This document shows positions 284-56,235 of a stretch of DNA of 64,000 bases, in pieces; the first letter of the stretch is position 1; every line of letters starts with the position of its first letter. The stretch comes from Lysobacter alkalisoli (GTDB lineage Bacteria > Pseudomonadota > Gammaproteobacteria > Xanthomonadales > Xanthomonadaceae). The stretch covers positions 3,730,001 through 3,794,000 of the forward strand of contig NZ_CP041242.1 in the NCBI RefSeq assembly GCF_006547045.1, read 5' to 3'. The notes under the pieces were generated by a model. That model did not search any database. It had not been told where the DNA came from and worked only from the letters and a program-made list of their open reading frames with translations. Made by a program: the position numbers and the translations under genes.

Positions 284-2157
284 AAGTCGGCACCGATGTT
301 GAGATAGATCTGGAACGACGATTCGGGGTCGTTCAGACCGCGGGCGAGATCGAGCCGCAACGGGCCGACCGGCGAGACCCAGCGCAGGCCGACGCCGACG
401 CCGGTGCGCCAGTCCGGCCTGTCGTCGAACGCGCTGCCGCTGTCGACGAAGCCGGCCACGCCCCAGGTGTCGTTGAAGTAATGCTCGAATTCGACGCTGC
501 CGGTGGCCAGGCTCTTGCCGCCGGTGTAGTAGCGGCCGCCCTCGGTTTCCTCGCTCGGGCCGACCTCGCGCCAGCCGTAGCCGCGGATGCTGCGGTCGCC
601 GCCGGCGTAGTAGCGCAGGCTCGGCGGCAGGTTGACCAGATCGCCGGTGAAGGTATGGCCGACTTCGCCACGCGCGATCAGCCGGTTGCGCTCGCCGACT
701 CCTCGGTACCAGCGCAACGAACCGTAGGCCTGGGCGAAGTTGGCATCGGAGCCGAGGCCCTCGGCACCGCCGCGGATCTCGAGCCTGCCCGCGAGCGCAT
801 CGCGCGGAAACAGCGCGTTGTCCGCATCGACATAGTCGGCGCGCAATGACGGGTAGACGTATGTTCCGTACTGGTAGGGGAGCGGCTCAGGCACGCCGTC
901 GCCATCCTGATCCCGGTTGATCGCATAGCGCCAGCGCTCGCGCAGCGCATGCATCGAAGCGGTGGCGGTCAGGTAGCGGTTGATCTTGCCGGTGCGGCTG
1001 CCGGTGAATTCGATCCGGCGCGAATCGATGTACTTGCTCTGCTCGTCGACGCCCTGGGCGCCGACGATGTACCAGCCGTCCAGCCAGGCGAAGGCAGGGA
1101 TGCGGTACTGCACGGTCGCCGTCTTGCGGCGCTTGGCATAGTCGACTTGCGACAGCAGCTTGTGGCCGCGATCGTTGAGGTAGCGCCGCTCCAGCCCGAG
1201 CCGGATGCCGGGGCCGTCCAGGGTGCTGTAGCTGACGCCGGCGGTGTAGACGCTGCGTTTGGCCGGGGTCAGGGTGACCTCGACCGGGACCCGCCCGTCC
1301 ACTGCCTGATCGGGTTGCGGCACGATGTCGATGGCGGCGAAGTAGTCCAGCTGCGACAGCGACTGGCGGAAACGGTCGAGCCTGCCCTGATGGTAATACT
1401 CGCCTTCGTTCCAGTAGATCAGTTGCTCCAGCAGCGAGTCGCGGATGATCCGCTCCGGCTGCTGGGTGAAGGTGATCGTTCCCATGTCGTAGCGCGGGCC
1501 GCTTTCCCAGACCAGGTCGATGTCGGCGGCATGTTCGGCGCGGGTGACCTCGACCCGGCGCGAGACGAAGTCGGCATCGAAATAGCCACGCTCGGCCAAG
1601 CGCCGGGTGATCCGGACCTTGCTGGCTTCGTAGCTCTCGTGGTTGAGGGTTTCGCCCGGCGCCGGCCTGAACTTGGCCAGGTCCTGTTTCAGGTAGCGGT
1701 CGGTCGCGCCCGCGCCGATGATGGCGATGTCCGAATGCCGCACCCGCACCGGCTCGCCGGGTTCGACCCTGATCGAGACCGCGACCGCATCGCCCTCACG
1801 TCGGCGCTCGACGGTGATCTGCGGGTCGTAGTAGCCGAACGGTTCCAGCGCCTTGCGGGTTTCCTTCTCGGCGGCCGTGATCAGATAGCCGAGCCGGCGC
1901 CAGCTCAACTCCTCGCCGCGGGCATCGACCAGCGACAACGCGACCCGCACGTTCTCGGTCATCGGCTCATCGAGGCCATGGATGCCGACCTCGCCAACCT
2001 GGATGGCATGGGCGGTGCCACTGCCCAGCAGCAGCAATGCGGAGGCGAGGATGCCCGGCAAGCGACGGCCCGACGGTCGTACCACCACCGGAGGCGGGTC
2101 CTTTGCAGCCGGGGCAGATGAACAGGCAGGCATGCGCCGAGCATACCGGGCCGCCAT
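280..2157 (-). CDS. tamA: TamA, Omp85-family outer-membrane assembly factor
   Basis: About 625 residues, the usual TamA size (about 580-630). TamA is the outer-membrane partner of TamB and helps insert some outer-membrane proteins such as autotransporters. A signal peptide ends at ..GSGTAHA around residue 51. Three POTRA-type modules follow (about 52-300), then a 16-strand Omp85 barrel with the hallmark YYAGGDRSIRGYGWREVG and C-terminal GVGVGLRWVSPVGPLRLD motifs. ATG 2157 has a GGAGG 4 nt upstream and is preferred, but it leaves an unusually long n-region, so an internal start nearer the signal peptide (ATG 2133 or a later GTG) is possible. The stop overlaps the tamB start. Confidence 0.93.
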   Translation of the reverse strand: MAARYARRMPACSSAPAAKDPPPVVVRPSGRRLPGILASALLLLGSGTAHAIQVGEVGIHGLDEPMTENVRVALSLVDARGEELSWRRLGYLITAAEKETRKALEPFGYYDPQITVERRREGDAVAVSIRVEPGEPVRVRHSDIAIIGAGATDRYLKQDLAKFRPAPGETLNHESYEASKVRITRRLAERGYFDADFVSRRVEVTRAEHAADIDLVWESGPRYDMGTITFTQQPERIIRDSLLEQLIYWNEGEYYHQGRLDRFRQSLSQLDYFAAIDIVPQPDQAVDGRVPVEVTLTPAKRSVYTAGVSYSTLDGPGIRLGLERRYLNDRGHKLLSQVDYAKRRKTATVQYRIPAFAWLDGWYIVGAQGVDEQSKYIDSRRIEFTGSRTGKINRYLTATASMHALRERWRYAINRDQDGDGVPEPLPYQYGTYVYPSLRADYVDADNALFPRDALAGRLEIRGGAEGLGSDANFAQAYGSLRWYRGVGERNRLIARGEVGHTFTGDLVNLPPSLRYYAGGDRSIRGYGWREVGPSEETEGGRYYTGGKSLATGSVEFEHYFNDTWGVAGFVDSGSAFDDRPDWRTGVGVGLRWVSPVGPLRLDLARGLNDPESSFQIYLNIGADL

Positions 2158-2472
2158 CAATCCTCCGTTAACGCAATCGGTCCGGTTGCAGTGGGAAGCA
2201 CAAACGAGCGGCAGAAAGAAGGAACCGGCCGGGAATGGACACCCCGGCCGGCCCGGGATTCGGCCTGGTCATGGGGCACGCACCGTCCTGGCCGGCGTCC
2301 AGGGTTCGTCGGTGCGGATCGGCCAGGGACTGGCACTGGACGCCCATGGCTTCCTCGGCGGGCTGCGCCGGCTGTCCGGACGATGCCATCTTTGCGAAAC
2401 AGACCGCGCTTTCACGGCGGGTCCACTACCGTCACCCGGGCCACGCGGACTCGTTTCCACCAGGAGCAGACC
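2158..2472. other. Intergenic stretch between divergent genes
   Basis: About 315 bp between the divergent tamA and DUF3011 genes. I see a ribosome-binding site at each end (GGAGG before tamA, CAGGAGCAG before 2473). No convincing -35/-10 pair, gene, repeat or hairpin is visible. Open frames across it look like GC-rich shadows. Confidence 0.5.
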
Positions 2473-3096
2473 ATGAACATGAAACTCCCCGTATTGGCCA
2501 TCGCCGCCGGCCTGGCCTGGGTCGGGTCGCCGTCGCCCGCCTCCGCGGAGACGACCGTCGAATGCATCTCGCACGAGTACCAATACAACGAGTGCTATGC
2601 GCCGCTGGAGGCACCTCATCTGGTCTACCAGAGTTCGCATGCGGCCTGCATCATCAACCGCACCTGGGGCTTCAACCCAGCCACCCGCCGGATCTGGGTC
2701 TCGCAGGGTTGTTCCGGCGTCTTCGCCGATCCCGGCGGCTATCACCATGGCGAGGCCGGCACATATGACGACGGCACGCGCAGCTATGGCCCTCGCGGTC
2801 ACGACACCGGCGCGGTGGTGGCGGGCGCGGTCCTGGGCGCGCTGCTCGTGGGTGCGGCCGAGTCGGATCAAAAGCACCACCACACCAGCAACGCGCACCA
2901 CCATACCGGCAACTCGGGCTCCGGCTATACGGGCTGCCACGGCGTCGGTTGCCTGGTGGACGATCCGGACCAGCAGGTCATCGATGATCGTCCGCAGTAC
3001 GACCGGGAAGGCAATCCAAACTTCGACACCCATGGCAACTATCAGGGTTGCCACGGCCTTGGTTGCGAGGTGGATGACCCCGGCTCGGACGACTAG
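2473..3096 (+). CDS. Secreted DUF3011-domain protein with two C-terminal cysteine repeats
   Basis: 207 residues with a clear signal peptide (MNMKLPVLAIAAGLAWVGS..ASA). Residues 27-85 fit DUF3011, a cysteine-containing domain of unknown function in Gram-negative secreted proteins: CISHEYQYNECYA, then AACIINRTWGF and RRIWVSQGCSGVFAD. A glycine/alanine-rich hydrophobic segment (GAVVAGAVLGALLVGAA) may cross or touch a membrane. It is followed by a His/Ser/Gly-rich linker and two copies of Y-x-GCHG-x-GC-x-VDDP (about residues 154 and 192). I start at ATG 2473, after CAGGAGCAG, because the signal peptide begins there; the frame remains open upstream. The role is unknown, probably periplasmic or surface. 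Confidence 0.85.
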   Translation: MNMKLPVLAIAAGLAWVGSPSPASAETTVECISHEYQYNECYAPLEAPHLVYQSSHAACIINRTWGFNPATRRIWVSQGCSGVFADPGGYHHGEAGTYDDGTRSYGPRGHDTGAVVAGAVLGALLVGAAESDQKHHHTSNAHHHTGNSGSGYTGCHGVGCLVDDPDQQVIDDRPQYDREGNPNFDTHGNYQGCHGLGCEVDDPGSDD

Positions 3097-3132
3097 GGTC
3101 CGGACGACACTCTGGAAGACGAGGAGCCCGGA

Positions 3133-3702
3133 ATGAACACCGGAAATTCAATCGCCATCATCGGCATGTTGCTGCTGTTGCCCGCATGCGGCGGCTCGCA
3201 CGACGCCGCACCGGAAAGGTCGACACCTGCAGCCGAAGCACAGGACGCTGTGGCTCTCGATGAGGCCGGCAATGGTGGAACTGTGGATGCTGCTGCAGCC
3301 CCGGCCGAAGACGATGCCTCGGTCAGAGCGGGTATCGAATCGATACTCGGCGGCAATGCGGACGATTACAAATCGGCTTTCCTGGCCTTGCAGAAGGCCG
3401 TGGCCGCAGGCGACAAGGATGCCGTGGCACAAATGATCCTGTATCCGCTGAACGGTGCCGTCGACGGACAGCAGACGATCCGGGACGCCGGCCAGTTCGT
3501 CCGCGAGTACGACAGCATCGTCACGCCTGCGATTGCCGATGCTGTCGCCCGGCAGAATTTTGCCGACCTGATGGTCAACAAGAACGGTCTCATGTTCGGC
3601 AATGGAGAAGTCTGGCTGACCGGTATCTGCGAGGACGATGCCTGCGAAAAGCAGTCGATCCTGGTCACCACGCTCCAGGACACAAGCGATCTCGACAACT
3701 AG
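3133..3702 (+). CDS. Predicted lipoprotein of unknown function
   Basis: 189 residues with a lipoprotein signal peptide; the lipobox is LPAC, with the cysteine at about residue 19. A low-complexity Ala/Asp/Glu linker leads to a compact domain (residues 60-180) containing LQKAVAAGDKDAVAQMILYPL, an aspartate-rich turn, and MFGNGEVWLTGICEDDAC. This resembles small NTF2-like or stress-associated periplasmic domains, but I cannot name the family. ATG 3133 has GAGGAG upstream. It lies 36 nt after the DUF3011 gene on the same strand, so co-transcription is plausible. Confidence 0.8.
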   Translation: MNTGNSIAIIGMLLLLPACGGSHDAAPERSTPAAEAQDAVALDEAGNGGTVDAAAAPAEDDASVRAGIESILGGNADDYKSAFLALQKAVAAGDKDAVAQMILYPLNGAVDGQQTIRDAGQFVREYDSIVTPAIADAVARQNFADLMVNKNGLMFGNGEVWLTGICEDDACEKQSILVTTLQDTSDLDN

Positions 3703-4903: not shown

Positions 4904-5149
4904 ATGAAACAGATACAGCACGGCGACGATGTCGGCCAGATCCAGCTCGGCAGCGAGGACGTTGAAGCCGCTGCCGTCGCCGGCGACGTCATGGTCGACT
5001 TCAATGTTCTCACTGCCCGCAAGAGCGGGCCGGACAACCTCATCAGCTGCGATTTCATCGACGGGAAGCTTGCAACCGTTACGCCGGCACCCGTCGCATT
5101 GCACTGTGCCCTGATCGAAGTACGGTACGACACGAAACACAAGCCGTAA
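4904..5149 (+). CDS. Small hypothetical protein
   Basis: An 81-residue open frame 13 nt after the channel gene, on the same strand. Its codons favour G or C at the third position much as the neighbouring real genes do, and a GAAGG lies upstream of the ATG. There is no signal peptide, membrane segment or recognised motif. Two frames on the other strand are also open here, so this may be a chance frame. Its position makes it a possible last gene of the 2473-4890 group. Confidence 0.4.
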   Translation: MKQIQHGDDVGQIQLGSEDVEAAAVAGDVMVDFNVLTARKSGPDNLISCDFIDGKLATVTPAPVALHCALIEVRYDTKHKP

Positions 5150-5169
5150 CCGCCGCTTCGGGACCCGCC

Positions 5170-7304
5170 TCAGATCGCCAGCTGCTCGATCGCGGCGACG
5201 CTGCCGAGGCGCTCGCTCAGCCGCTTGAGCAGGGCCAGGCGGTTGCCGCGTACGGCCGGGTCGTCGGCGTTGACCATCACGTTGTCGAAGAACGCATCGA
5301 CCTGCGGGCGCAGCCGCGCCAGGTGGCGCAGCGCCTCGACGTAGTCGCCATGCGCGAGTGCGTGGCCGGTTTCGGCATGCACGGCCTCGACCGCCTCGGC
5401 CAGCGCCAGCTCGGCCGGCTCGCTCATCAGCTCGAGGTCGAAACCCGCGGGGATTTCACCCTCTGCCTTGCGCAGGATGTTGTTGATGCGCTTGTTGGCC
5501 GCAGCGAGGGCTTCCGCCTCCTGCAACGCGGCGAAGATGCCGATCGCGTCGATGCGGCGGTCGAAGTCGTACAGCGACTTCGGCTTCAGTTCGGCGACCG
5601 CGTTGAAGTGCTGCACCGGCACGCCCTTGTCGGCGTAGTAGCCGCGCAGGCGGTCGAGGATGAAGTCGTAAAGCTCTTTCGCACTCTGCTCTAAATGAGC
5701 GTGCGGATCTGATGGATCTTCCACACGGTCGACCGGAGCATTAATCCCCACAGCACTGGAGATAAAAGCGTTGATGTCCAGATCAAACCCACTCTCGATC
5801 ACCGTCCGCGCCAACCCCAGCGCATTGCGCCGCAGCGCGAACGGATCCTTGTTGCCGGTCGGCTTGAGTCCGGCGGCGAAACCGCCGGCCAGGGTATCCA
5901 GCCGCTCGGCAATCGCCAGCACCTTGCCCGCCGGCGACAGTGCGATGTCGTCGCCGCCGAAGCGCGGGCGGTAGGCCTCGTCGATGGCGTCGGCGACGGC
6001 AACTCGGTCGTCGTGCGGAAGATCGTCGAGCGAGACATCCTGCATCGCGTAGTGGCGACCGGCGATGCCCTGCAGTTCAGGGAACTCGCCGACCATGCGC
6101 GATTGCAGGTCGTTCTTCGACAACTGCGCGGCGAGCCGCACCAGCTTCTTGTCGGCACCGACCTGTTCCGCGATCGCCTCGGCCAGCGCGGTCACCCGCG
6201 CGACCTTGTCGGCGAGGGTGCCCAGCTTGGCCTGGTAGGTCACCGTCTTCAGGCCCTCGCCCATCGCGGCCAGGCCCTGCTTCATGTCCTCGACGAAGAA
6301 GAACTGGGCGTCGGCGAAGCGCGGGCGGATCACCCGCTCGTAGCCCTTGCGGACCTCGGCCTCGTCGTTGGATTCGATGTTGGCGATGCCGACGAAGTGC
6401 TCGGACAACCGGCCGTCGGAATCGAGCACCGGGAAGAACTTCTGGTTGGTCTCCATCGTCGCCACCAGCGCCTCGGCCGGCACCGCGAGGAACTCGGGCT
6501 CGAAGCTGCAGCGCACCGCCACCGGCCACTCGGTCAGGCCGTTGACCTCTTCCAGGATGCCGGCGTCGATACGCGCACTGCCGCCGGCCGCCTTCGCCGC
6601 CGCCTCGACCTCGGCGACGACGCGCGCGCGACGCTCGTCCGGGTCGGCCAGCACCTTGGCGCCGCGCAGGAACTCGATGTAGTCGCCGGGCACGCTGAAC
6701 CAGACCGGCTTGTCGTGCATGAAGCGGTGGCCGCGGCTCATGCGGTCGCTGCGCACGCCGAGCAGCTCGGCCTCGACCACGTCCTTGCCGTGCAGCACGA
6801 CCAGCCAATGCACCGGGCGGGCGAAGCCGTACTCGTGCGCGCCCCAACGCATCGGCTTGGGGATCGGCATCGCCGCGACCGCCTCGCGGATGATCTCCGG
6901 CAGCAGGTCGGCGCTGCGCGCGCCCGGCTTGACCGAGCGGTGGACGAAGCGCTCGCCCTTGTTGTCGGTGGTCTTCTCCAGCGCGCTCCACTCGACCCCG
7001 GCCTTGGCCGCAAAACCCTGCAGCGCGCGGGTCGGCTGGCCGTCGGCGTCAAGGGCGATGTTGAGGTAGGGACCGAGCACCTCGCTGCGCTGTTCGGGCT
7101 GCTCGTCCGCCACCAGTGGCAACAGCACCGCGAGCCGGCGCGGGGTGTACAGCGGCTTCGCGTCACCACGATCGAAGGCGATGCCGCGCTTTTCCAGTCC
7201 GGCGATGACGCCGTCGAAGAACGCCTGCGCCAGGCCCGGCAGCGCCTTGACCGGCAGCTCTTCGGTGCCGAGTTCGATCAGGAGGGGGTGCATGCTGGAG
7301 GCGC

Positions 7305-42830: not shown

Positions 42831-44651
42831 TCAGGATCTACCGATGATGGTCTCGCCGCGCGGCACGCGGACCTCGTCGACCATGCGCTGGGTTTCCTCA
42901 TCCGGCGCCGGGAACATCAGCGTCACCACGATCATCGCGACGAAGCTGACGACCACGCCGACCACGCCGAAGCGCAGATGGTCGAGGCCGAGCCAGGGCT
43001 CCATTCCTCCACGCACCGCGAGCAGGTAGCCCCAGCCCGCGGCCAGGCCGAACACCATGCCGGCGATCGCGCCCTGGCGATTGGCGCGCTTCCACCACAC
43101 GCCCAGCACCAGTGGCGCGAACAGACCCGACATCGCGAAGCAGAACGCCCAGGCCACCGCACCGAGGATGCCGGTCAGCTTCATGCTGGCCACCAGCGCA
43201 CCGGCCAGACCGATGACGATCAGCAGGACGCGTGCGGTCAGCAGGCGCTTGCGGGTCTCGGCCTTCGGGTCGAGGATCTTGTAGTACAGGTCATGCGACA
43301 GGGTGTTGGCCATCGCCAGCAGCAGGCCGTCGGCGGTGGACATCGCCGCGGCCAGGCCGCCTGCGGCGACCAGTCCGGAGATCACGTACGGCAGGCCGGC
43401 GAATTCCGGCGTGGCCAGCACGATGATGTCCGGGTTGAGGAAGAACTCGTTGACCTGCAGGATCCCGTCGCCGTTGGAGTCGCGGATCGCCAGCAGGCCG
43501 ACCTCGCCCCAGTTCCGCACCCAGCTCAGTGCTTCGACCTCGGCAATGCTCTTGCCGAAGATCGAGCTGGCCAGATTCGGGTCCATCAGCGACAGCTTGC
43601 TGAGGGTGGCCAGGGCCGGTGCCGAGAAGTACAGCAGGAAGATGAAGAACAGCGACCATGCCACCGAGTTGCGGGCGGCCTTCACCGATGGGGTGGTGAA
43701 GTAGCGCATCAGGATGTGCGGCAGCGAGGCGGTACCGACCATCATGCAGAACGCCAACGTGACGAACTGCCAGGCCGCCAGCGCACCCGCCTGGGGTTCC
43801 GCGTGCAGGGTGGTCAGCACGCCCAGGCCGGGAACCTGCTCGGCTGCCGCTGTGCCAACACCCAGCATCGGCTCCAGCTCGATGATGCGCTCGACCGCCG
43901 GACCGTACTGGAACTGCGGGAACCAGCCGAAGCCCTGTGCACCCGACATCCATACGATCGGGACGAGGTAGGCGATGATCAGCACGATGTACTGCGCCAC
44001 CTGGGTCCAGGTCACCGCGCGCATGCCACCGAGCATCGAACAGACCAGGATGCCGGCCAGGCCGATATAGACGCCCCACTCGAACGGGATCAGGAACGCG
44101 CGCGCGGCGATCGTGCCGCTGGCGGTGATCTGCGCGGTCACATAGGTGAACGATGCGACGATCAGCACCACGATGGCGCAGAAGCGGGTCAGCTTGCCGC
44201 CGTAACGGGTACCGATGAAGTCCGGCACCGTGTAACAGCCGAACTTGCGCAGGTACGGCGCCATCAGCGTCGCCACCAGGATGTAGCCGCCGGTCCAGCC
44301 GACCACGAACGCGAGGTACGGGTAGCCGGACATGAAGATGCCGCCGGCCATCGCCACGAACGAGGCACCCGACATCCAGTCGGCTGCCGTGGCCATGCCG
44401 TTGAACACCGGGGGCACGCTGCGGCCCGCCACGTAGTAGGCATCGACCGCCATCGTGCGCGAGAGGATACCGATGAAAGCGTAGATCACGACCGTGAAGG
44501 CCACGAACGAGATGCCGATCGCGGCGGCGCTCATGCCCATCTTCTCGCCGATCGCCATCAGCGCGAAGAAGACCAGGAAGCCGCCGGTGTAGACCCCGTA
44601 GATCTTCGGCAGGTTGTCGATGAAGGATTTACCTTCCCATTGCAGTCCCAT
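42831..44651 (-). CDS. Sodium:solute symporter (VC_2705/ActP-like), probable acetate uptake
   Basis: 606 residues, about 13 membrane helices. An SSF-family transporter like ActP, using a Na+ gradient to bring in acetate or similar acids. Recognisable parts: DAYYVAGRSVPPVFNGMATAADWMSGASFV, GGYILVATLMAPYLRKFGCYTVPDF, GLAAAMSTADGLLLAMANTLSHD. Between two helices at 391-402 it carries an EF-hand-like loop, DSNGDGILQVNE. It is downstream of the DUF4212 gene, separated by 12 nt, as in the usual pair. The acetate link comes from the neighbours acs, crbR and crbS. Confidence 0.9.
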   Translation of the reverse strand: MGLQWEGKSFIDNLPKIYGVYTGGFLVFFALMAIGEKMGMSAAAIGISFVAFTVVIYAFIGILSRTMAVDAYYVAGRSVPPVFNGMATAADWMSGASFVAMAGGIFMSGYPYLAFVVGWTGGYILVATLMAPYLRKFGCYTVPDFIGTRYGGKLTRFCAIVVLIVASFTYVTAQITASGTIAARAFLIPFEWGVYIGLAGILVCSMLGGMRAVTWTQVAQYIVLIIAYLVPIVWMSGAQGFGWFPQFQYGPAVERIIELEPMLGVGTAAAEQVPGLGVLTTLHAEPQAGALAAWQFVTLAFCMMVGTASLPHILMRYFTTPSVKAARNSVAWSLFFIFLLYFSAPALATLSKLSLMDPNLASSIFGKSIAEVEALSWVRNWGEVGLLAIRDSNGDGILQVNEFFLNPDIIVLATPEFAGLPYVISGLVAAGGLAAAMSTADGLLLAMANTLSHDLYYKILDPKAETRKRLLTARVLLIVIGLAGALVASMKLTGILGAVAWAFCFAMSGLFAPLVLGVWWKRANRQGAIAGMVFGLAAGWGYLLAVRGGMEPWLGLDHLRFGVVGVVVSFVAMIVVTLMFPAPDEETQRMVDEVRVPRGETIIGRS

Positions 44652-46625: not shown

Positions 46626-48578
<1,953 letters not shown>

Positions 48579-48699: not shown

Positions 48700-49383
48700 A
48701 TGTCCAGCCCTCCCCCCGCCACCGTCATCGTCGCCGACGACCATCCGCTGTTCCGCGAAGCCCTGCGCGGCGCAGTCGCGCGGGTGCTACCCGATGCCCG
48801 GCTGTGCGAGGCCGATGGCGTCGAGTCGCTGTACACGCTGGTCGAGAGCGAGCCCGATGCCGATCTGCTGCTGCTCGACCTCAACATGCCCGGTGCGCAG
48901 GGGTTCTCGGCTCTGGTTCATCTGCGCGCGCTGCATCCGCAGTTGCCGATCGTGGTGGTGTCGGCACGCGAGGAACCGGTGGTGATGCGGCGCGCGCTGG
49001 ACCACGGCGCGGTCGGCTTCATCCCCAAGTCCGCGGATGCCGCGACCCTGGGTAGCGCGATCACCGCCGTGCTCGCCGGCGACCGCTGGGCGCCACCGGC
49101 GGCACTGTCCGCACCGGCCGCCGACGATGCCGAACACGATGCCGCCCGGCGCGTGCGCGAACTGACTCCACAGCAGTTCCGCGTCCTGCAGATGCTCGGC
49201 GCCGGCCTGCTCAACAAGCAGATCGCCTACGACCTCGGCGTGTCGGAAGCCACGATCAAGGCCCACGTCACCGCTATCCTGCGCAAGCTGGGGGCCAGCA
49301 ACCGCACCCAGGCGGTGCTGATCGCCGGCCGCCTCGCGGTCGACCCGGGCGCGATCGTGCCGCCACCGGAAGAGACGGATTGA
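48700..49383 (+). CDS. crbR: LuxR-family response regulator, CrbR-like
   Basis: 227 residues. REC domain (1-125) with VIVADDHPLFREAL, phosphorylated Asp in LLLLDLNMPG, and conserved Lys in GFIPKSA; LuxR helix-turn-helix (160-215) with LTPQQFRVLQMLGAGLLNKQIAYDLGVSEATIKAHVTAIL. In Vibrio and Pseudomonas CrbR acts with the SSF-linked histidine kinase CrbS to switch on acs. The presence of acs before it and a CrbS-like sensor at 52.7-56.2 kb supports that name. The pair is interrupted here by the borosin genes and a diguanylate cyclase. Confidence 0.85.
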   Translation: MSSPPPATVIVADDHPLFREALRGAVARVLPDARLCEADGVESLYTLVESEPDADLLLLDLNMPGAQGFSALVHLRALHPQLPIVVVSAREEPVVMRRALDHGAVGFIPKSADAATLGSAITAVLAGDRWAPPAALSAPAADDAEHDAARRVRELTPQQFRVLQMLGAGLLNKQIAYDLGVSEATIKAHVTAILRKLGASNRTQAVLIAGRLAVDPGAIVPPPEETD

Positions 49384-49599
49384 CGGTCGCGGTCTTGCCC
49401 ATCACACCGCGCCTCTTGCTCGTCATCTGGCCCTGATCAGCGCCGAGCAGCCGGACGACGGCCTCGCCCGGCCCATCGGCCGCCTGCTCGATCGTTTCGG
49501 CTTCCGCCGCACTCCGGAACGGGCCAGCGCCCCGGCCTGTGCCGCTGGGAACTGCCGTGCCGGCATTGGAGCGCCCTGCGGGCAAACCGCTGAGCCGGC

Positions 49600-49627
49600 T
49601 TGCAAACCTGTTCGGTGGGAGTATCGT
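49600..49627 (+). promoter_or_regulatory. Candidate promoter of the borosin genes
   Basis: TTGCAA (49600-49605), a 16-nt spacer, then TATCGT (49622-49627). Transcription would start near 49634, 26 nt before ATG 49660. The 276-bp gap after crbR (49384-49659) otherwise holds no gene or clear terminator that I can see. Confidence 0.3.
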
Positions 49628-49659: not shown

Positions 49660-50517
49660 ATGCCGAAGATCGCCACCAAGCCACCGGGCAGACTCGCCTG
49701 CATCGGCGTGGGGATGATGCTCGGGGCCCATATCGGGCCGCGCGCGCGCAGTCATGTCGAACAGGCCGACGTGGTGTTCGCCGCCGTATCCGACCCGCTG
49801 GTGGAACTGTGGCTGCAGGATATGAACGCCGACGTGCGCAGCCTGCAGCCCCATTACGCCGAGGGCAAGTCGCGCCACCAGACCTATCGCGAGATGGTCG
49901 AGGCCATGCTGGCCGAGGTCCGCGCCGGCAAGCAGGTCTGCGGCGCCTTCTACGGTCACCCCGGCGTGTTCGCCCAGGTAGCCCACGAGGCCATCGCCCA
50001 GGCCCGCCGCGAGGGCTTCCACGCCCACATGGAACCCGGCGTCTCCGCCGAGGACTGCCTGTACGCCGACCTCGGCATCGACCCGGGCAGGTTCGGCTGC
50101 CAGCACTACGAGGCCAGCCAGTTCATGTTCTACCGGCGCCGCATCGACCCCTCGGCCTACCTGGTGCTTTGGCAGGTCGGCATCGCCGGCGACCGCAGCT
50201 GCCGCCGCTTCGCCACCGGCCCGGCCCACCGCCGGCTGCTGGTCGAGCGCCTGCTCGAGGACTATCCGGCCGACCACGAGGCCGTCGTCTACGAGGCCGC
50301 CACCTTGCCGATCACCGCGCCACGGATGGAGTCGGTGAAGCTGAGCAACTTGGCCGACACCGAACTGCACATGCACAGCACCCTGGTGCTGCCACCGGCC
50401 ACAGCGCTGCAACCCGACACCGCCATGCTGGCGCGGATCGAGGCGCTCGAACGCGCAGCCGTGACCGGTTCACTCACGATTTCCTCGTTATCGCTTGAAA
50501 CAGAAGGAGCCACCTGA
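49660..50517 (+). CDS. Borosin-type peptide backbone alpha-N-methyltransferase (split pathway)
   Basis: 285 residues. The tetrapyrrole-methylase fold with the residues that define borosin methyltransferases. SAM-binding GVGMMLGAHIGPRAR (residues 16-30) is followed by HYAEGKSRHQTYREM (65-79) giving Tyr66, Arg72 and Tyr76, and by GAFYGHPGVF (95-104) giving Tyr98; these are the same positions as in fungal OphMA. EPGVSAEDCLYADLGIDPG and LVLWQVGIAGD also match. These enzymes methylate amide nitrogens in the backbone of a ribosomal peptide. OphMA carries its peptide fused at the C-terminus; here the peptide is encoded separately by the next gene, as in Shewanella SonM/SonA. ATG 49660 opens the conserved part; the stop overlaps the precursor start (TGATG). 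Confidence 0.92.
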   Translation: MPKIATKPPGRLACIGVGMMLGAHIGPRARSHVEQADVVFAAVSDPLVELWLQDMNADVRSLQPHYAEGKSRHQTYREMVEAMLAEVRAGKQVCGAFYGHPGVFAQVAHEAIAQARREGFHAHMEPGVSAEDCLYADLGIDPGRFGCQHYEASQFMFYRRRIDPSAYLVLWQVGIAGDRSCRRFATGPAHRRLLVERLLEDYPADHEAVVYEAATLPITAPRMESVKLSNLADTELHMHSTLVLPPATALQPDTAMLARIEALERAAVTGSLTISSLSLETEGAT

Positions 50518-50810
50518 TGTCGAATGTCGTTCAGTTCCTTGAAACCATGGGCCGGCATCCGGCCCTGCTTTCGGACGCGGACTATATCCGCACCGTGATG
50601 GATGCCGGGCTGGACGAGAGTTCGCGCGATGCCCTCTTGCAGCGTGATGCCGAGAGCTTGATACACGCCCTGGATGCCCGCTCACCGATGTTCTGCTTCA
50701 GTTTTGTCGCCACTCCCGATGGCGGCAAGGAGCAGCCCCTCGACGACGACCGTGAAGACGAAGGCGTGGAGACGCCGGTCGAAGAGCCGACACCCAAGGA
50801 ACCTGAGTAG
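50517..50810 (+). CDS. Borosin precursor peptide with leader (borosin-binding domain) and core
   Basis: 97 residues, with AAGGAG before ATG 50517 and a 1-nt overlap with the methyltransferase. Residues 3-50 are a small helical domain, VVQFLETMGRHPALLSDADY then IRTVMDAGLDESSRDALLQR, with the LxxFLxxLGxxxxLxxxYxxxPxxVMxxxGLxxxxxxALLxxD spacing of SonA-type borosin-binding leaders. Next, SPMFCFSFVATPDGG (57-70) is a hydrophobic beta-type stretch, the likely core to be N-methylated. The final 25 residues are almost entirely Asp, Glu, Pro and Lys, an acidic follower tail. Which residues are methylated and whether the core is cut out are unknown; no protease gene is adjacent. Confidence 0.88.
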   Translation: MSNVVQFLETMGRHPALLSDADYIRTVMDAGLDESSRDALLQRDAESLIHALDARSPMFCFSFVATPDGGKEQPLDDDREDEGVETPVEEPTPKEPE

Positions 50811-50882
50811 ACGTTGCACCCGCGCCCGGGCATTGCGGGTGCGGCCGGCAGCGCCAGCAGCGGATGGCTGGAGGATGACACC

Positions 50883-52652
50883 ATGATGTGCAGAGCAGTT
50901 CGTGCAGTGCTGGTCACCATGATCCTGGCCGCTTGCGCGGTGGCGATGCCGGCCCGGGCCGGCATCGAAGCGGCCCTGAAGCACGCGGACTCGATTCGCA
51001 CCAGCGACCCCAGGGAGTTCGCCGACGCCCTTGCCGGCCTCGCCGCGTTCGAGCCGGAAGCAACACCGAATCAGAAGCTTCGCATCCGGCTCCTCCGGAC
51101 CTACCAGAAGACTCTCACCGGCAACTACGAGTCCGCCATAGCCGACGCGATCGACATCCATCAACGCACCGACGATCCAACCCTGAAGTTCCGTGCCGCC
51201 CTGCTGGCGGCAAACACCGCGGCGATCACCCGGGAGTTTTCGCTGGGCTTGCGCTATCTGGAAATCGCCCTGGCAATGCAGGACCAGGTGCCAGAGGCCG
51301 ATGAGCGGCACCTGGGTTCTCTGGTAGCCGCGATCTTGTACACCGAGTACGGACAGCATTCGCTTTCGCTCCACTACGCCAAGCAGCTTCTTTCCCTCGA
51401 AACTTCAGCGCGCACCCGATGTGCAGCCCGCCTTAAGAAAATCGAGGCAGAGTGGAAGCTCGGCACCAGGCCTGAAGTCGAGCGCGATACACATATCGCA
51501 ATCAGCGACTGCATGGCCCAGAAGGAGCCGATTGCCACGGGACTCCTTCGTGGTTACCTGGCCCGCCAATGGGCGGGGGCGGGCAAGACAGCCAAAGCCA
51601 TCGAACTGCTTGAGACCCATCTGTCGGAAGTCGAGGCAACCGGCTTTCCGCGCCTGATCGGCGAGATCCACAGCCTGCTTGCGGAATACCGCCAGGCGAC
51701 CGGCGATCTGGCACGCGCCGATCAGCATGCCCGCACCGTACTGGAGCTGGGCGAAAAGGATGCCTATTCGCTGCCTCTGGTCATCGCACACCGGGTGCTG
51801 TTCGAAACCGCGCTCAAACGAGGCGACCTCGCCACCGCTCTCGACGAATACCGCAGCTACGCCAAAGCCGACAAGGCGCGCCTCGACGAGGTCAAGGCGC
51901 GCGAGTTCGCGTTCCAGCTCAGCCGCCATGAGCTGCAGCAGCGCGACCAGGCGATCGGCCTGCTGAGCAAGCAGAACGAGGTACTGCGGCTGGAGCAGGA
52001 AGTCGCGCGCAAGTCGGCGCAGAACACCCACCTGCTGGTCCTGCTGCTGATCGTGATCGCGTCGGCAGTCGGCTTCTGGGCCTGGAAGACCAAGCGCATG
52101 CAGATGAAGCTGCGGCGCCTGGCGCAGACCGATGGCCTGACCGGGATCAGCAACCGCCGCCACTTCCGCGAACAGGCCGACGCGCTGCTGATGCGTTGCG
52201 CGTCGTCCGGACGCGAGACCGCGCTGATCCTGCTCGACCTGGACAACTTCAAGCGCCTCAACGATCACCACGGCCACGCCGCCGGTGACTGGGTGCTGGC
52301 CCGGGTCGCCGAAGCCTGCCGCAGCGTGTGCCGCGACGGCGACCTGTGCGGGCGCCTCGGCGGCGAGGAGTTCGCGATCATGTCCTGCGGTGGCGACCTG
52401 GCCGCCGCCGAGCGCATCGCCCGCCAGTGCCGCGAGCAGCTGGCCGCGATCGACACCTCTCCGATCGGCCATGGCGAGCCGATCACCGCCAGTTTCGGCT
52501 GCACCACCTCGGTCCGTTCGGGCCCGACTTTCGAACTGATGTTCGCCCACGCCGACAACGCGATGTACCGGGCCAAGGCCGAGGGCCGCGACCGCATCCG
52601 CATCCATGGCGGCCCGTCGGGGGTGGCGGTGCTGCAACGGGGCACGGCGTAG
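50883..52652 (+). CDS. Membrane diguanylate cyclase with periplasmic TPR-like sensor region
   Basis: 589 residues. Signal anchor (VRAVLVTMILAACAVAMPARA), about 330 helical TPR-like residues in the periplasm, a coiled coil, a transmembrane helix (THLLVLLLIVIASAVGFWAW) and a cytoplasmic GGDEF domain. The active motif is GGEEF (in LCGRLGGEEFAIM), preceded by RDGD five residues upstream, the product-inhibition I-site. It should make c-di-GMP. ATG 50883 has GGAGG 8 nt ahead. It begins 72 nt after the borosin precursor, so it may share its transcript. Confidence 0.92.
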   Translation: MMCRAVRAVLVTMILAACAVAMPARAGIEAALKHADSIRTSDPREFADALAGLAAFEPEATPNQKLRIRLLRTYQKTLTGNYESAIADAIDIHQRTDDPTLKFRAALLAANTAAITREFSLGLRYLEIALAMQDQVPEADERHLGSLVAAILYTEYGQHSLSLHYAKQLLSLETSARTRCAARLKKIEAEWKLGTRPEVERDTHIAISDCMAQKEPIATGLLRGYLARQWAGAGKTAKAIELLETHLSEVEATGFPRLIGEIHSLLAEYRQATGDLARADQHARTVLELGEKDAYSLPLVIAHRVLFETALKRGDLATALDEYRSYAKADKARLDEVKAREFAFQLSRHELQQRDQAIGLLSKQNEVLRLEQEVARKSAQNTHLLVLLLIVIASAVGFWAWKTKRMQMKLRRLAQTDGLTGISNRRHFREQADALLMRCASSGRETALILLDLDNFKRLNDHHGHAAGDWVLARVAEACRSVCRDGDLCGRLGGEEFAIMSCGGDLAAAERIARQCREQLAAIDTSPIGHGEPITASFGCTTSVRSGPTFELMFAHADNAMYRAKAEGRDRIRIHGGPSGVAVLQRGTA

Positions 52653-52672: not shown

Positions 52673-52749
52673 GTAGCCCGGGTAAGCGAAGCGCACCCGG
52701 GAATGGTCGCCGCCGATCACCCGGGGTGAGCTTCGCTTGCCCGGGCGAC
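52673..52749. repeat. REP sequences, two copies in opposite orientation (copies 2 and 3)
   Basis: GTAGCCCGGGTAAGCGAAGC then GCACCCGGG at 52673-52701, and an inverted copy CACCCGGGGTGAGCTTCGC then TTGCCCGGGCGAC at about 52718-52749, between the convergent cyclase and histidine kinase genes. The second copy overlaps the 3' end of the kinase gene, so its last residues (PVARASEAHPG) are encoded by the repeat. Confidence 0.85.
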
Positions 52750-55700
52750 GGGTTTTTGCGCGGCGAGGAAGGCACGCATCGAGGCCGGCTTGACCGGCTT
52801 GGTCAGCACCCGGCAGCCGCGTTCGCGGGCGGCATGCTTGAGGGCGTCGCTGCCGTCACCGGTCAGCAACGCGACCGGGAACAGGGGGCCGAGCCGGGAG
52901 CGCAGGGCATCGATCACACCGAGGCCGTCGAGGCGGTCGTGCAGGTGGTAGTCGACCAGGGCGACGTCCGGCGGCCGCATCGAGTCGGCGGCGGCCAGCG
53001 CCTCGTCGGTGTTGACGGCGGTGACCACATCCGCGCCCCAGCGCTGAAGCAGGGTGCGCATGCCATCGAGAATTTCGCGGTCGTTGTCCACGCACAGCAC
53101 CTGCAGTCCGGCCAATGCGTCGATATCGCTGATGGGCGATGCCACCGCAGGCGCCTGCAGATTGGCCGTGGCGGCCACCGCCTGCCCGGCATCCGTTCCG
53201 GCAGCCCTGCCGAAAGGCACGGTGATCGAGAACACACAGCCCTTGCCTATCCTTGAACGCACCCGCAGCGGATGGTCGAGGGTGCGGGCAATGCGCTGGC
53301 AGATCGAAAGACCGAGACCGAGCCCGCGCTCGCCGCCGCGGGCCGGTGTATCGAAACGACGAAATTCGTCGAAGATCTGCGCAAGATGATGTTCGGAAAC
53401 GCCCGGGCCGGTATCCCAGACCTGCAGCTCGATCGCGCTTTCGCGCACCCGTGCGGCGATCAGCACGCCGCCCTCGCGGGTATAGCGCAGCGCGTTGGCG
53501 AGGAAGTTCTGCAGCGCGCGCCGCAACAGCCGGCGGTCGCTGCGCACGGGCTGTGGCCGCTCGGGCGCGCGCACGCGCAGTTGCAGGCCGCGCTCGGCGG
53601 CGATCGGCGCGTACTGGGCCACGAGTTCGCGCAATAGTTCGTTGACGTCGAAGTCGCCGATTTCGACCCGCAGCGCTCCGGCATCCAGGCGCGAGATGTC
53701 GAGCAGGCCGTCCAGCAGGTCTTCCGCGGCCCGCAGCGCGGCATCGACGCGCTCGGCCAGGCGCGCCTGTTCGTCGCCGTCGCGACTGTCGCGCAAGGCG
53801 GTGGTGAACAGCCGCGCGGCGTTGAGCGGCTGCAGCACATCGTGGCTGACCGCGGCCAGGAAACGGGTACGCGACTGCTGCGCGGCCTCGGCTTCGCGGG
53901 TGCGCTGCTCGACCCGCTGCTCCAGGGTCTCGTTGACCTCGCGCAGGGCCTGTTCGGCGCGTTTGTAGTCGGTGACGTCGCTGTAGCTGGTGACGTAGCC
54001 GCCCCCCTGCAGCGGACGCCCGCGCATCTCCACCACCTGGCCGCTGGCGCGCACGCGCTCGAACACATACGGGGTGCCGGCACGCAGGTGACCGAGACGG
54101 CGCCGCACCTGCTCCTCGATATCGCCCTCGCCCATCTCGCCGCGCTCGGCATTCCAGCGGATCAGGTCGGCCACCGGACGGCCGACGTAGAGCATGCCGT
54201 CCGGATAGTCGAACAGTTCCTGGTACTGGCGGTTCCAGGCCACCAGGCGCAGCTCGGCATCGACCACGCTGACGCCCTGGCTGATGTTCTCCAGCGTGGT
54301 CGACAGCACCTGGCGGTTGAAGCGCAGCTCCTGGTTGGCTTCATCGAGCAGGGCCACCACCTCGCCCAGCTCCATGCCCGAGCCGCGCAGGGCGCTGGTC
54401 AGGGTCAGGCGCGCGGAGGCGGCACCGATCGCCGAGGCCAGCAGGCGCTCGGTGAACTGGGCCAGCGCGCGATCGGCCGGTTGTTCGGGCTGCCAGGTGC
54501 GGTTCTGCTGCGCGGCATGGGTCTCGAACGCGCGCCGCGCATGACGCTCGCCGACGATGCGCTCGGCCAGCGCCAGCAATTCGCCGGCACGCACGCTGCC
54601 GGCCCAGCCGCCCGGGCCGAGCGCGGGCCGCTGCACATAGGGGTCGAGGAACGGTGCGGCCAGCAGCTGATCCTGCAGGCGCGGACGCTGCCGCATCGAC
54701 ATGAACACGAACACGCCGACATTGAACAGCAGCGACCAGAACACGCCATGGGTCAACGGATCCCAGCCCTGCAGGCCGAACAGCTGCTCCGGCTGCAGCC
54801 AGTCGATGCCGAACGGACCCCGTTCGATCCAGCCCTGGTCGAACCAGCCGCCACGCGCCAGGGCCGGCAGCAGCAAGGTCCAGCCCCACAGCACCGCACC
54901 GGCGAGCAGACCGCTGAAAGCGCCGGTCCGGCTGGCCCCGCGCCAATACAGGCCGCCGATCAATGCCGGTGCGAACTGCGCGACCGCGGCGAACGCGAGC
55001 AGGCCATGCTGGGCCAGGCTGCCGGCGTCGCCACGCTGCAGGTCGCCGCGGTGATAGGCATAGGCCAGCATCGCCAGCATCACGATGGTGATCCGGCGCA
55101 CCCACAGGATGTGGCGATTGATCGCAGGCGTCTCGTCGAGGCTGCGGCTGCGCAGCAGCAGCGGCATCACCAGGTCGTTGCTGACCATGGTCGCCAGCGC
55201 GACGCTGGCCACGATCACCATGCCGGTGGCGGCGGAAAAGCCGCCGATGTAGACGACCATCGCCAGGGTGTTGTGGTCCAGCGCCAAAGGCAGGGCCAGC
55301 ACGTAGCTGTCCGGCGAGGCCCCGGAGCCCCCCAGCACCGCCCAGCCGGCCAGGGTGATCGGCACCACCAGCACGCTGATCAGGATCAGGTAGCCGCCGA
55401 ACATCCAGCGCGCGGTGCGCACGTCGGCCGGGTTCTGGCACTCCACCACCGCGACATGGAACTGTCGCGGCAGGCACAGGATGGCGGTGAACGCGAGCAG
55501 AGTCTGGACCATGAAGCCGGTCGGCATGCCGGGCGAGAGCACCACGTCGGCGGCCTGCACCATGCGTTCGCCGACATGGCCGGTGCCGGGCAGGTGCATC
55601 AGTGCGAACACGCCGATCGCGACGAACGCGACCAGCTTGACCATCGACTCCAGCGCCACCGCCAGCACCATGCCGCGGTGGTGCTCGGTGGCGTCGATCT

Positions 55701-56235
55701 GGCGAGTGCCGAACAGGATCGCGAACACCGCCAGCAGCAGTGCGGTGTAGAAGGCCGGGTCCGACAGCGGCGGGGAATTGGCCGGCAGCCCGGCCAGTAC
55801 GCCCACGCTCATCGCCACCGCCTTGAACTGCAGCGCGACGTAGGGCACCGCCGCGACCAGCGCCAGCAATGCCACCAGTGCCGCCAGCCCGGGCGCCCGC
55901 CCGTAGCGCGAGGACAGGAAGTCGGCAATCGAGACGATCCGGTTCTCGCCCGAGATCAGCACCAGCCGCTCCAGGATCCGCCAGCCGAAGAACAGCAGCA
56001 GCAACGGGCCGAGATAGATCGGCAGGAAGCCCAGGCCGGTGCGCGCGGCGGTGCCGACCGCGCCATAGAAGGTCCATGACGAGCAGTACACCGCCATCGC
56101 CAGCGAATAGATCGCCGGCCGCAGCCATCGCCAGCGCGGCATCGATTCGCTGTGCCGGTCGCCCCAGTAGGCGACCGCGAACAGCAGGGCCACATAGCCC
56201 AGCGACACCAGCAGCAGTACCCAGCCCGGGATCAC
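52717..56235 (-). CDS. crbS: Hybrid histidine kinase with N-terminal sodium/solute symporter domain, CrbS-like
   Basis: 1172 residues. An SSF-type 13-helix region (about 1-480), a linker with coiled coil, PAS (about 640-760, ENISQGVSVVDAELRLVAWNRQYQEL), HisKA (VSHDVLQPLNAARLF), HATPase (NFLANALRYT, DTGPGV, GLGLGLSICQ) and a C-terminal REC domain with VALVDYHLHD and LTKPVKP. CrbS, also known from MxtR/NahK-like proteins, couples substrate sensing at the membrane to a CrbR-type regulator and controls acetate use. GTG 56235 is the start chosen. The C-terminal 11 residues come from a REP sequence. Confidence 0.9.
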   Translation of the reverse strand: MIPGWVLLLVSLGYVALLFAVAYWGDRHSESMPRWRWLRPAIYSLAMAVYCSSWTFYGAVGTAARTGLGFLPIYLGPLLLLFFGWRILERLVLISGENRIVSIADFLSSRYGRAPGLAALVALLALVAAVPYVALQFKAVAMSVGVLAGLPANSPPLSDPAFYTALLLAVFAILFGTRQIDATEHHRGMVLAVALESMVKLVAFVAIGVFALMHLPGTGHVGERMVQAADVVLSPGMPTGFMVQTLLAFTAILCLPRQFHVAVVECQNPADVRTARWMFGGYLILISVLVVPITLAGWAVLGGSGASPDSYVLALPLALDHNTLAMVVYIGGFSAATGMVIVASVALATMVSNDLVMPLLLRSRSLDETPAINRHILWVRRITIVMLAMLAYAYHRGDLQRGDAGSLAQHGLLAFAAVAQFAPALIGGLYWRGASRTGAFSGLLAGAVLWGWTLLLPALARGGWFDQGWIERGPFGIDWLQPEQLFGLQGWDPLTHGVFWSLLFNVGVFVFMSMRQRPRLQDQLLAAPFLDPYVQRPALGPGGWAGSVRAGELLALAERIVGERHARRAFETHAAQQNRTWQPEQPADRALAQFTERLLASAIGAASARLTLTSALRGSGMELGEVVALLDEANQELRFNRQVLSTTLENISQGVSVVDAELRLVAWNRQYQELFDYPDGMLYVGRPVADLIRWNAERGEMGEGDIEEQVRRRLGHLRAGTPYVFERVRASGQVVEMRGRPLQGGGYVTSYSDVTDYKRAEQALREVNETLEQRVEQRTREAEAAQQSRTRFLAAVSHDVLQPLNAARLFTTALRDSRDGDEQARLAERVDAALRAAEDLLDGLLDISRLDAGALRVEIGDFDVNELLRELVAQYAPIAAERGLQLRVRAPERPQPVRSDRRLLRRALQNFLANALRYTREGGVLIAARVRESAIELQVWDTGPGVSEHHLAQIFDEFRRFDTPARGGERGLGLGLSICQRIARTLDHPLRVRSRIGKGCVFSITVPFGRAAGTDAGQAVAATANLQAPAVASPISDIDALAGLQVLCVDNDREILDGMRTLLQRWGADVVTAVNTDEALAAADSMRPPDVALVDYHLHDRLDGLGVIDALRSRLGPLFPVALLTGDGSDALKHAARERGCRVLTKPVKPASMRAFLAAQKPVARASEAHPG

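Follow-up and report, generated by a model that had tools for sequence, protein, structure and literature searches.

The DNA considered here is a 64,000-nt stretch ('the window') from the soil-type bacterium Lysobacter alkalisoli (GCF_006547045.1, NZ_CP041242.1, positions 3,730,001-3,794,000, forward strand). Three of its genes, in the order methyltransferase, precursor, and then cyclase, are a compact split-borosin operon. Features are as follows, by window position:

42831-44651, - strand: SSF-family (ActP-like) symporter
46626-48578: acetyl-CoA synthetase (acs)
48700-49383: ErdR-like response regulator
49388-49600, + strand: remnant of a GNAT acetyltransferase C-terminus, a frameshifted pseudogene fragment (local alignment versus shuffles)
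49660-50517, + strand: split-borosin alpha-N-methyltransferase, SonM-like, 285 aa, stop TGA (Pfam, phmmer versus PDB, alignment)
50502-50509, + strand: Shine-Dalgarno sequence AGAAGGAG, within the methyltransferase 3' end (sequence)
50517-50810, + strand: precursor peptide gene, 97 aa, overlapping the methyltransferase stop by 1 nt (open reading frame, homologues, profile)
50517-50681, + strand: leader, residues 1-55, a borosin-binding-domain-like helical bundle (AlphaFold model, match to SonA)
50682-50720, + strand: predicted core SPMFCFSFVATPD, residues 56-68, with boundaries deduced from the multi-core relative L139 and from alignment
50721-50807, + strand: C-terminal tail, residues 69-97, acidic and proline-rich, its character conserved (homologue comparison)
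50883-52652, + strand: TPR-sensor diguanylate cyclase, 589 aa, with predicted signal sequence (approximately 1-26), TPR sensor, membrane helix (approximately 384-400), and GGDEF domain (Pfam, segment prediction, model)
51420-51512, + strand: sensor Cys180 codon (51420-51422) to Cys210 codon (51510-51512), a putative disulfide (alignment, model)
52332-52373, + strand: RDGD inhibitory-site motif (residues 484-487) and GGEEF active-site motif (residues 493-497) (alignment)
52717-56235, - strand: PAS-histidine kinase-receiver protein, with an extended N-terminal region in which Pfam, at the cut-off applied, finds no match

The original prediction for this DNA stopped at position 50810 and saw in it a borosin pathway, a reading which stands, though it left out the conserved TPR-GGDEF gene and the remnant of an acetyltransferase and did not see how widely such loci are distributed. 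The 1-nt overlap that it described is as stated, with both frames present, a TGATG junction, and a 97-aa partner, and the strong ribosome-binding site which it gave to that partner is found as AGAAGGAG, 7 nt before the ATG at 50517. The cyclase gene then starts 72 nt past the precursor end, with GGAGG at 50870-50874 before the start. No terminator-like sites were found on the + strand over 49660-52652, and the promoter search found no sigma-70-type match at all; neither result is given weight as evidence.

As matched against the PDB using phmmer, the methyltransferase has SonM as its best match (E 3e-77), with fungal borosin proteins matching at E 1e-48 to 9e-52, and the best tetrapyrrole methylase, a precorrin-2 methylase, reaching only E 0.006. 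The Pfam match is to PF00590, TP_methylase (E 5e-23), a superfamily which includes porphyrin methylases, and by that match borosin enzymes and porphyrin methylases are not separable. The NCBIfam corrin models, however, all fall far under their cut-offs, and none yields an equivalog match. Tyr66, Arg72, Tyr76, and Tyr98 sit at exactly the positions previously predicted, and in the phmmer alignment they pair with SonM Tyr58, Arg67, Tyr71, and Tyr93, mutants of which display reduced activity (PMC8429565). These four residues are invariant across 75/75 aligned sequences, that of the window included, and the previously noted FYGHPGVF and WQVG motifs are both there as well. The prediction had named a ranking led by CobA/SUMT-type enzymes, with no borosin hits, as one outcome that would speak against it, and that outcome is absent. 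Indeed, match ranking along with the sub-threshold corrin models rules out a tetrapyrrole (CobA/SUMT/Cbi) methylase identity. The broader idea, of a methylase of tetrapyrroles or of some other small molecule which happens to be followed by an unrelated small protein, would be in agreement with the Pfam match but can for practical purposes be dismissed, given the gap between SonM and precorrin-2 methylase, the invariance of the borosin catalytic residues, and the presence of a partner peptide in 32/34 methyltransferase-positive relatives but in no negative one.

The precursor, as a single query, has no match in Pfam, NCBIfam, or the PDB. A profile built from 60 precursor homologues finds nothing significant in the PDB apart from seven SonA sequences (E 8e-4 to 2e-3, with the next at 1.6). 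In the AlphaFold model, residues 1-50 form a block with pLDDT 78-92, and core and tail, with pLDDT 53-68, are without regular structure. The leader of that model superimposes on SonA with Z 7.1 (rmsd 2.0 over 53 residues) at a structural identity of about 20%. With the OphMA clasp and with SonA the leader matches at Z 5-7; LigAB falls in the same range (Z 6.2), and the next unrelated chain is at Z 3.9. With Foldseek the E-values are weak (0.8-2), yet borosin chains take every one of the first 15 places. The SonA-type leader of the original prediction is borne out, that is, by profile and fold alike.

The predicted core is hydrophobic, with hydrophobic columns at 58-65 in the 60 relatives, and its Cys60 is found in 43/60 of these. 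Assignment of SPMFCFSFVATPD as the core, already made in the original prediction, gains support from the multi-core precursor of L139, since this repeats the core unit as TYFCWVATPEEE, TYFCAVNTPELE, and PYFCGVLTPEEL. Versus two near relatives, the precursor has an overall NG86 dN/dS of 0.22-0.24, i.e., purifying selection, and the core differs in amino acid at 2/13 codons (dN 0.07, dS saturated). The expected novelty of the product applies to its exact sequence only, as nearly the same core is present in loci L021 and L022, and the acidic, proline-rich tail, previously presented as a peculiarity, actually is common to the precursor family. Steroidobacter-type precursors (L060, 6414-6842; L065, 6458-6886) possess a long, lysine-rich C-terminal extension past the core. 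In L010 (2352-3188; genome G008), one cyclase is preceded by three consecutive precursors with different cores.

Because the methyltransferase is a SonM relative with its key residues invariant, because the precursor profile finds SonA only, and because the leader folds as does the borosin-binding domain of SonA and OphMA, the gene pair is almost certainly a split borosin pair, with backbone methylation predicted. Present, that is, are SonM/OphMA homology with its active-site set, a separate and adjacent precursor, a borosin-binding leader, and a hydrophobic core, i.e., the makings of a type IV-like split borosin. Split borosins are an established kind (PMC8429565), to which later work added types V-X and 0 (PMC11395268). 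The pair described here is a further member of that established kind, and the locus, taken alone, is ordinary within a widespread family.

Just how widespread was underestimated by the original prediction, which placed free-standing precursors in Shewanella and only a few more bacteria. In fact the methyltransferase is found (E < 1e-60) in 34/60 genomes drawn from the window's own genus, family, and order, and also in 52/60 Shewanella genomes, in the latter as two subtypes of approximately 60% and 50% identity. Its holders include Lysobacter, Luteimonas, Pseudoxanthomonas, Dyella, Rhodanobacter, Steroidobacter, Rheinheimera, and Alteromonadaceae, among others, with Lysobacter aestuarii and L. 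ruishenii supplying the nearest named relatives. Even sampling of the class gave a match in just 12/321 genomes, which is uninformative for co-occurrence. Imani, in 2022, reportedly counted more than 1600 split-borosin pathways. An alphaproteobacterial example, L093 (a Hyphomonadaceae MAG, 4992-5774), has a borosin-type methyltransferase near which neither precursor nor cyclase was detected. Over the 94 loci compared, a precursor homologue is close to the methyltransferase in 88.

Other genes are less constant. A GNAT acetyltransferase (PF13302) is found in 69/94 loci, positioned between methyltransferase and precursor or else immediately ahead of the methyltransferase, and a pepsin-like peptidase (PF00026) lies upstream in 19/94, with none adjoining in the other 75. 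Such peptidases occur in 9/60 relatives, all of them methyltransferase-positive, and mostly are adjacent. Lee et al., in 2024, reportedly showed that shewasin A accepts a borosin precursor as substrate. The window genome has no pepsin-like peptidase as judged by Pfam family search and by close homologue query. For the acetyltransferase, a first analysis of the gap supplied only a weak hint of a remnant, and the matter was settled by using closer relatives along with shuffles: The fragment at 49388-49600 has a local alignment score of 135 versus a shuffle maximum of 63, its second frame, PGLCRWELPCRHWSA, scores 73, and relatives have an intact acetyltransferase gene at that position. As the window genome lacks both the peptidase and an intact acetyltransferase yet retains a frameshifted GNAT C-terminus, an ancestral operon of peptidase, acetyltransferase, methyltransferase, precursor, and cyclase, in that order, has most likely been cut down in this lineage.

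A missing peptidase and fragmented acetyltransferase could mean that the pathway is losing function, or that the window copy no longer yields a product. Decay to that degree nevertheless would be quite improbable, as frames are open, catalytic residues and GGEEF are intact, Shine-Dalgarno sites are present, dN/dS is about 0.2 with the core conserved, and two further lineages, L021 and L022, keep the same reduced operon form. Methyltransferase and precursor look constrained, in other words, despite loss of tailoring genes.

The third gene is predicted, from its intact GGEEF, to encode a membrane diguanylate cyclase. Its GGDEF domain is matched by Pfam at E 2e-39, with the GG(D/E)EF active site present as GGEEF. 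This GGEEF is found in 83/83 cyclases and RxxD in 64/83, an N-terminal hydrophobic segment is found in 83/83, and a membrane helix in 82/83; the sensor portion is predicted to be periplasmic. As modeled (pLDDT 94.9), the sensor is a TPR superhelix, the best fold matches of which include Rap, NprR, and AimR (Z 18-25), with eukaryotic TPR proteins scoring as high as Rap. Cys180 and Cys210 are invariant over 63 aligned sensors and are found on neighboring antiparallel helices in the model, a placement which would seem to suit a periplasmic disulfide.

A cyclase-like protein was found by a first BLAST in 91/94 loci, in nearly all of them directly behind the precursor. With sensor matches taken on whole genomes and counted as linked if within 5 kb and on the same strand, the sensor cyclase is linked to 37/39 methyltransferase copies among the 60 relatives and to 71/72 among the 60 Shewanella genomes. 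The lone Shewanella exception is a contig ending inside the sensor cyclase, and including this one gives a linkage of 109/111 copies. By genome, the sensor is present in 33/34 methyltransferase-positive versus 0/26 negative relatives, and in 51/52 positive versus 0/8 negative Shewanella genomes, counts which are not independent events since the genomes are related; Fisher values on this co-occurrence ignore kinship, with agreement between two separate groups the stronger point. The exceptions among relatives are G027 and the second methyltransferase copy in G043, and four sensors are without methyltransferase or detected precursor. The sensor cyclase is present in SonA-type loci as well (e.g., L143, L136-L138). 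The L139 locus (G027:C1:577000-584000, 1998-3161) consists of methyltransferase, acetyltransferase, and the multi-core precursor, with xYFCxVxTPE units, but without a sensor cyclase.

Precursor and cyclase have also been duplicated jointly. Two consecutive precursor-cyclase pairs are found behind one methyltransferase in five Rheinheimera-type loci and in one Dyella (Dyella acidisoli). For four of the Rheinheimera-type loci, sensor 1 versus sensor 2 identity is 32-35%, and sensor 2 is 86-96% conserved with precursor 2 in parallel at 82-93%. Of pair 1, only L055 versus L091 displays close conservation (sensor 94%, precursor 86%). A precursor-cyclase pair can even be remote: L129 (G055:C8:291500-297000, 569-2591, - strand) is approximately 87 kb from the methyltransferase. 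As only one methyltransferase was found in genome G055, the L129 precursor would need to be methylated in trans. Over 54 loci, precursor distances correlate with sensor distances upon removal of the methyltransferase contribution (partial Mantel r 0.54, p 0.001, a p from which phylogenetic or rate effects are not all removed), and the correlation of precursor with methyltransferase, sensor removed, is lower (r 0.23). In L037, L039, and L042 (Pseudoxanthomonas) and in L089 (Pleionea), a single precursor precedes two TPR-GGDEF cyclases in tandem.

The borosin operon sits inside an acetate-use locus, and the order acs, regulator, borosin operon, and then kinase is kept in Lysobacter loci L021, L022, L025, L026, L030, and L032. 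This conserved order could tie the borosin operon to acetate metabolism. As parts of the system proper, acs and response-regulator genes were rejected, however, for they adjoin only in close relatives (13-14/94 loci).

Linkage, pair duplication, the remote pair, the precursor-sensor distance correlation, and the TPR fold together are what connect peptide with cyclase, and the borosin pair probably is functionally coupled to that cyclase. How it might be so can be put as a model which, as a whole, is somewhat favored. Acting as a homodimer, the methyltransferase would hold the newly made 97-aa precursor by its helical leader and, proceeding from N to C, would move methyl groups one at a time from SAM onto backbone nitrogens within the hydrophobic core, around residues 56-68; the reaction is presumed by analogy with SonM-SonA, and family membership is drawn from sequence, fold, and linkage. 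Proteolysis would then release the methylated core, a step for which some relatives would use a pepsin-like peptidase and the window genome another one. A Shewanella denitrificans pepsin homologue is mainly cytoplasmic (PMC4814920), which would suit core release inside the cell. The released core would cross the inner membrane, passage that backbone methylation is said to favor (PMC8429565), and would bind to the periplasmic TPR groove, thereby setting c-di-GMP output. Precursor and cyclase, that is, would serve as 'signal' and receptor. That the peptide is a ligand of the TPR sensor is, as a claim by itself, possible but somewhat doubtful: A signal peptide is absent from the precursor, whereas the predicted location of the sensor is periplasmic, and TPR folds are common. 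More tentative still is the generalization that this group's borosins are signals rather than antibiotics, acting via a periplasmic TPR sensor upon c-di-GMP, within or between cells, as coevolving signal-receptor pairs.

From a different perspective, the split borosin product may act elsewhere, as a secreted antibiotic, metallophore, or other metabolite, with the cyclase a lifestyle regulator of its production rather than a receptor. Cyclases often adjoin pathways that are under their control, linkage alone does not separate ligand from regulator, and the absence of an export signal, given a sensor predicted to be periplasmic, also is in this reading's favor. From a regulator one would not expect duplication with the precursor but without the methyltransferase, however, nor precursor divergence tracking the sensor more than the methyltransferase, and cyclase as regulator only is viewed here as rather unlikely. 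Less likely again is that no small peptide is released at all, the methylated but unprocessed precursor instead remaining intracellular as a protein regulator. Its leader does resemble LigA-type caps (LigAB, Z 6.2), the acidic tail is retained, and a peptidase is not found adjoining in 75/94 loci nor anywhere in the window genome, but the restriction of pepsin-like peptidases to methyltransferase-positive relatives, mostly adjacent, and the repeated cores of one relative, which are typical of released peptides, point instead toward release of the core. Under the favored model of a released core acting upon the cyclase, backbone N-methylation would serve signaling, in a peptide-to-c-di-GMP circuit common to many Gammaproteobacteria. 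Should the ligand idea be false, linkage still points to a likely pathway regulator. Either way, having a TPR-sensor cyclase as near-obligatory neighbor, and one which is duplicated along with the precursor, makes the peptide's role directly testable.

As of 2021, no bacterial split borosin had been tied to a final natural product, leaving their role open (PMC8429565). A GGDEF domain is listed among borosin architectures or clusters in the legend to Figure 1 of PMC11395268, so, by that legend, borosin-GGDEF linkage is at least partly known; none of the papers searched joins borosin with di-GMP. Among known systems, shewasin-type bacterial pepsin homologues (PMC4814920) are comparable to the PF00026 peptidases adjoining the operons of some relatives, although none is present in the window genome. 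The fungal borosins OphMA/dbOphMA (types I-III) share methyltransferase homology, the Tyr/Arg/Tyr/Tyr set, and a clasp with the same fold as the leader, but are fused, rather than two proteins as here. With Rap, NprR, and AimR (RRNPP), the likeness is of a TPR superhelix, these being, along with eukaryotic TPR proteins, among the nearest sensor folds, and of a small-peptide gene adjoining its receptor, a likeness in fold for which no sequence homology is claimed. Unlike the RRNPP receptors, which are cytosolic and read a peptide that is exported and then re-imported, the window sensor, with signal sequence and membrane helix, is predicted to be periplasmic and to drive a GGDEF cyclase, and the adjoining peptide, unlike theirs, presumably is backbone-methylated and lacks an export signal. 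Also close is the type IV split borosin SonM-SonA of Shewanella oneidensis (PMC8429565), with its separate but adjacent genes, borosin-binding leader, and the same four active-site residues. Versus SonA, the window precursor is longer, with a cysteine-containing core, an acidic, proline-rich tail, and a leader that is only about 20% identical, and versus SonM the methyltransferase is of another subtype, Shewanella having both. The Shewanella SonM/SonA-like locus L143, though, likewise continues with a TPR-GGDEF gene.
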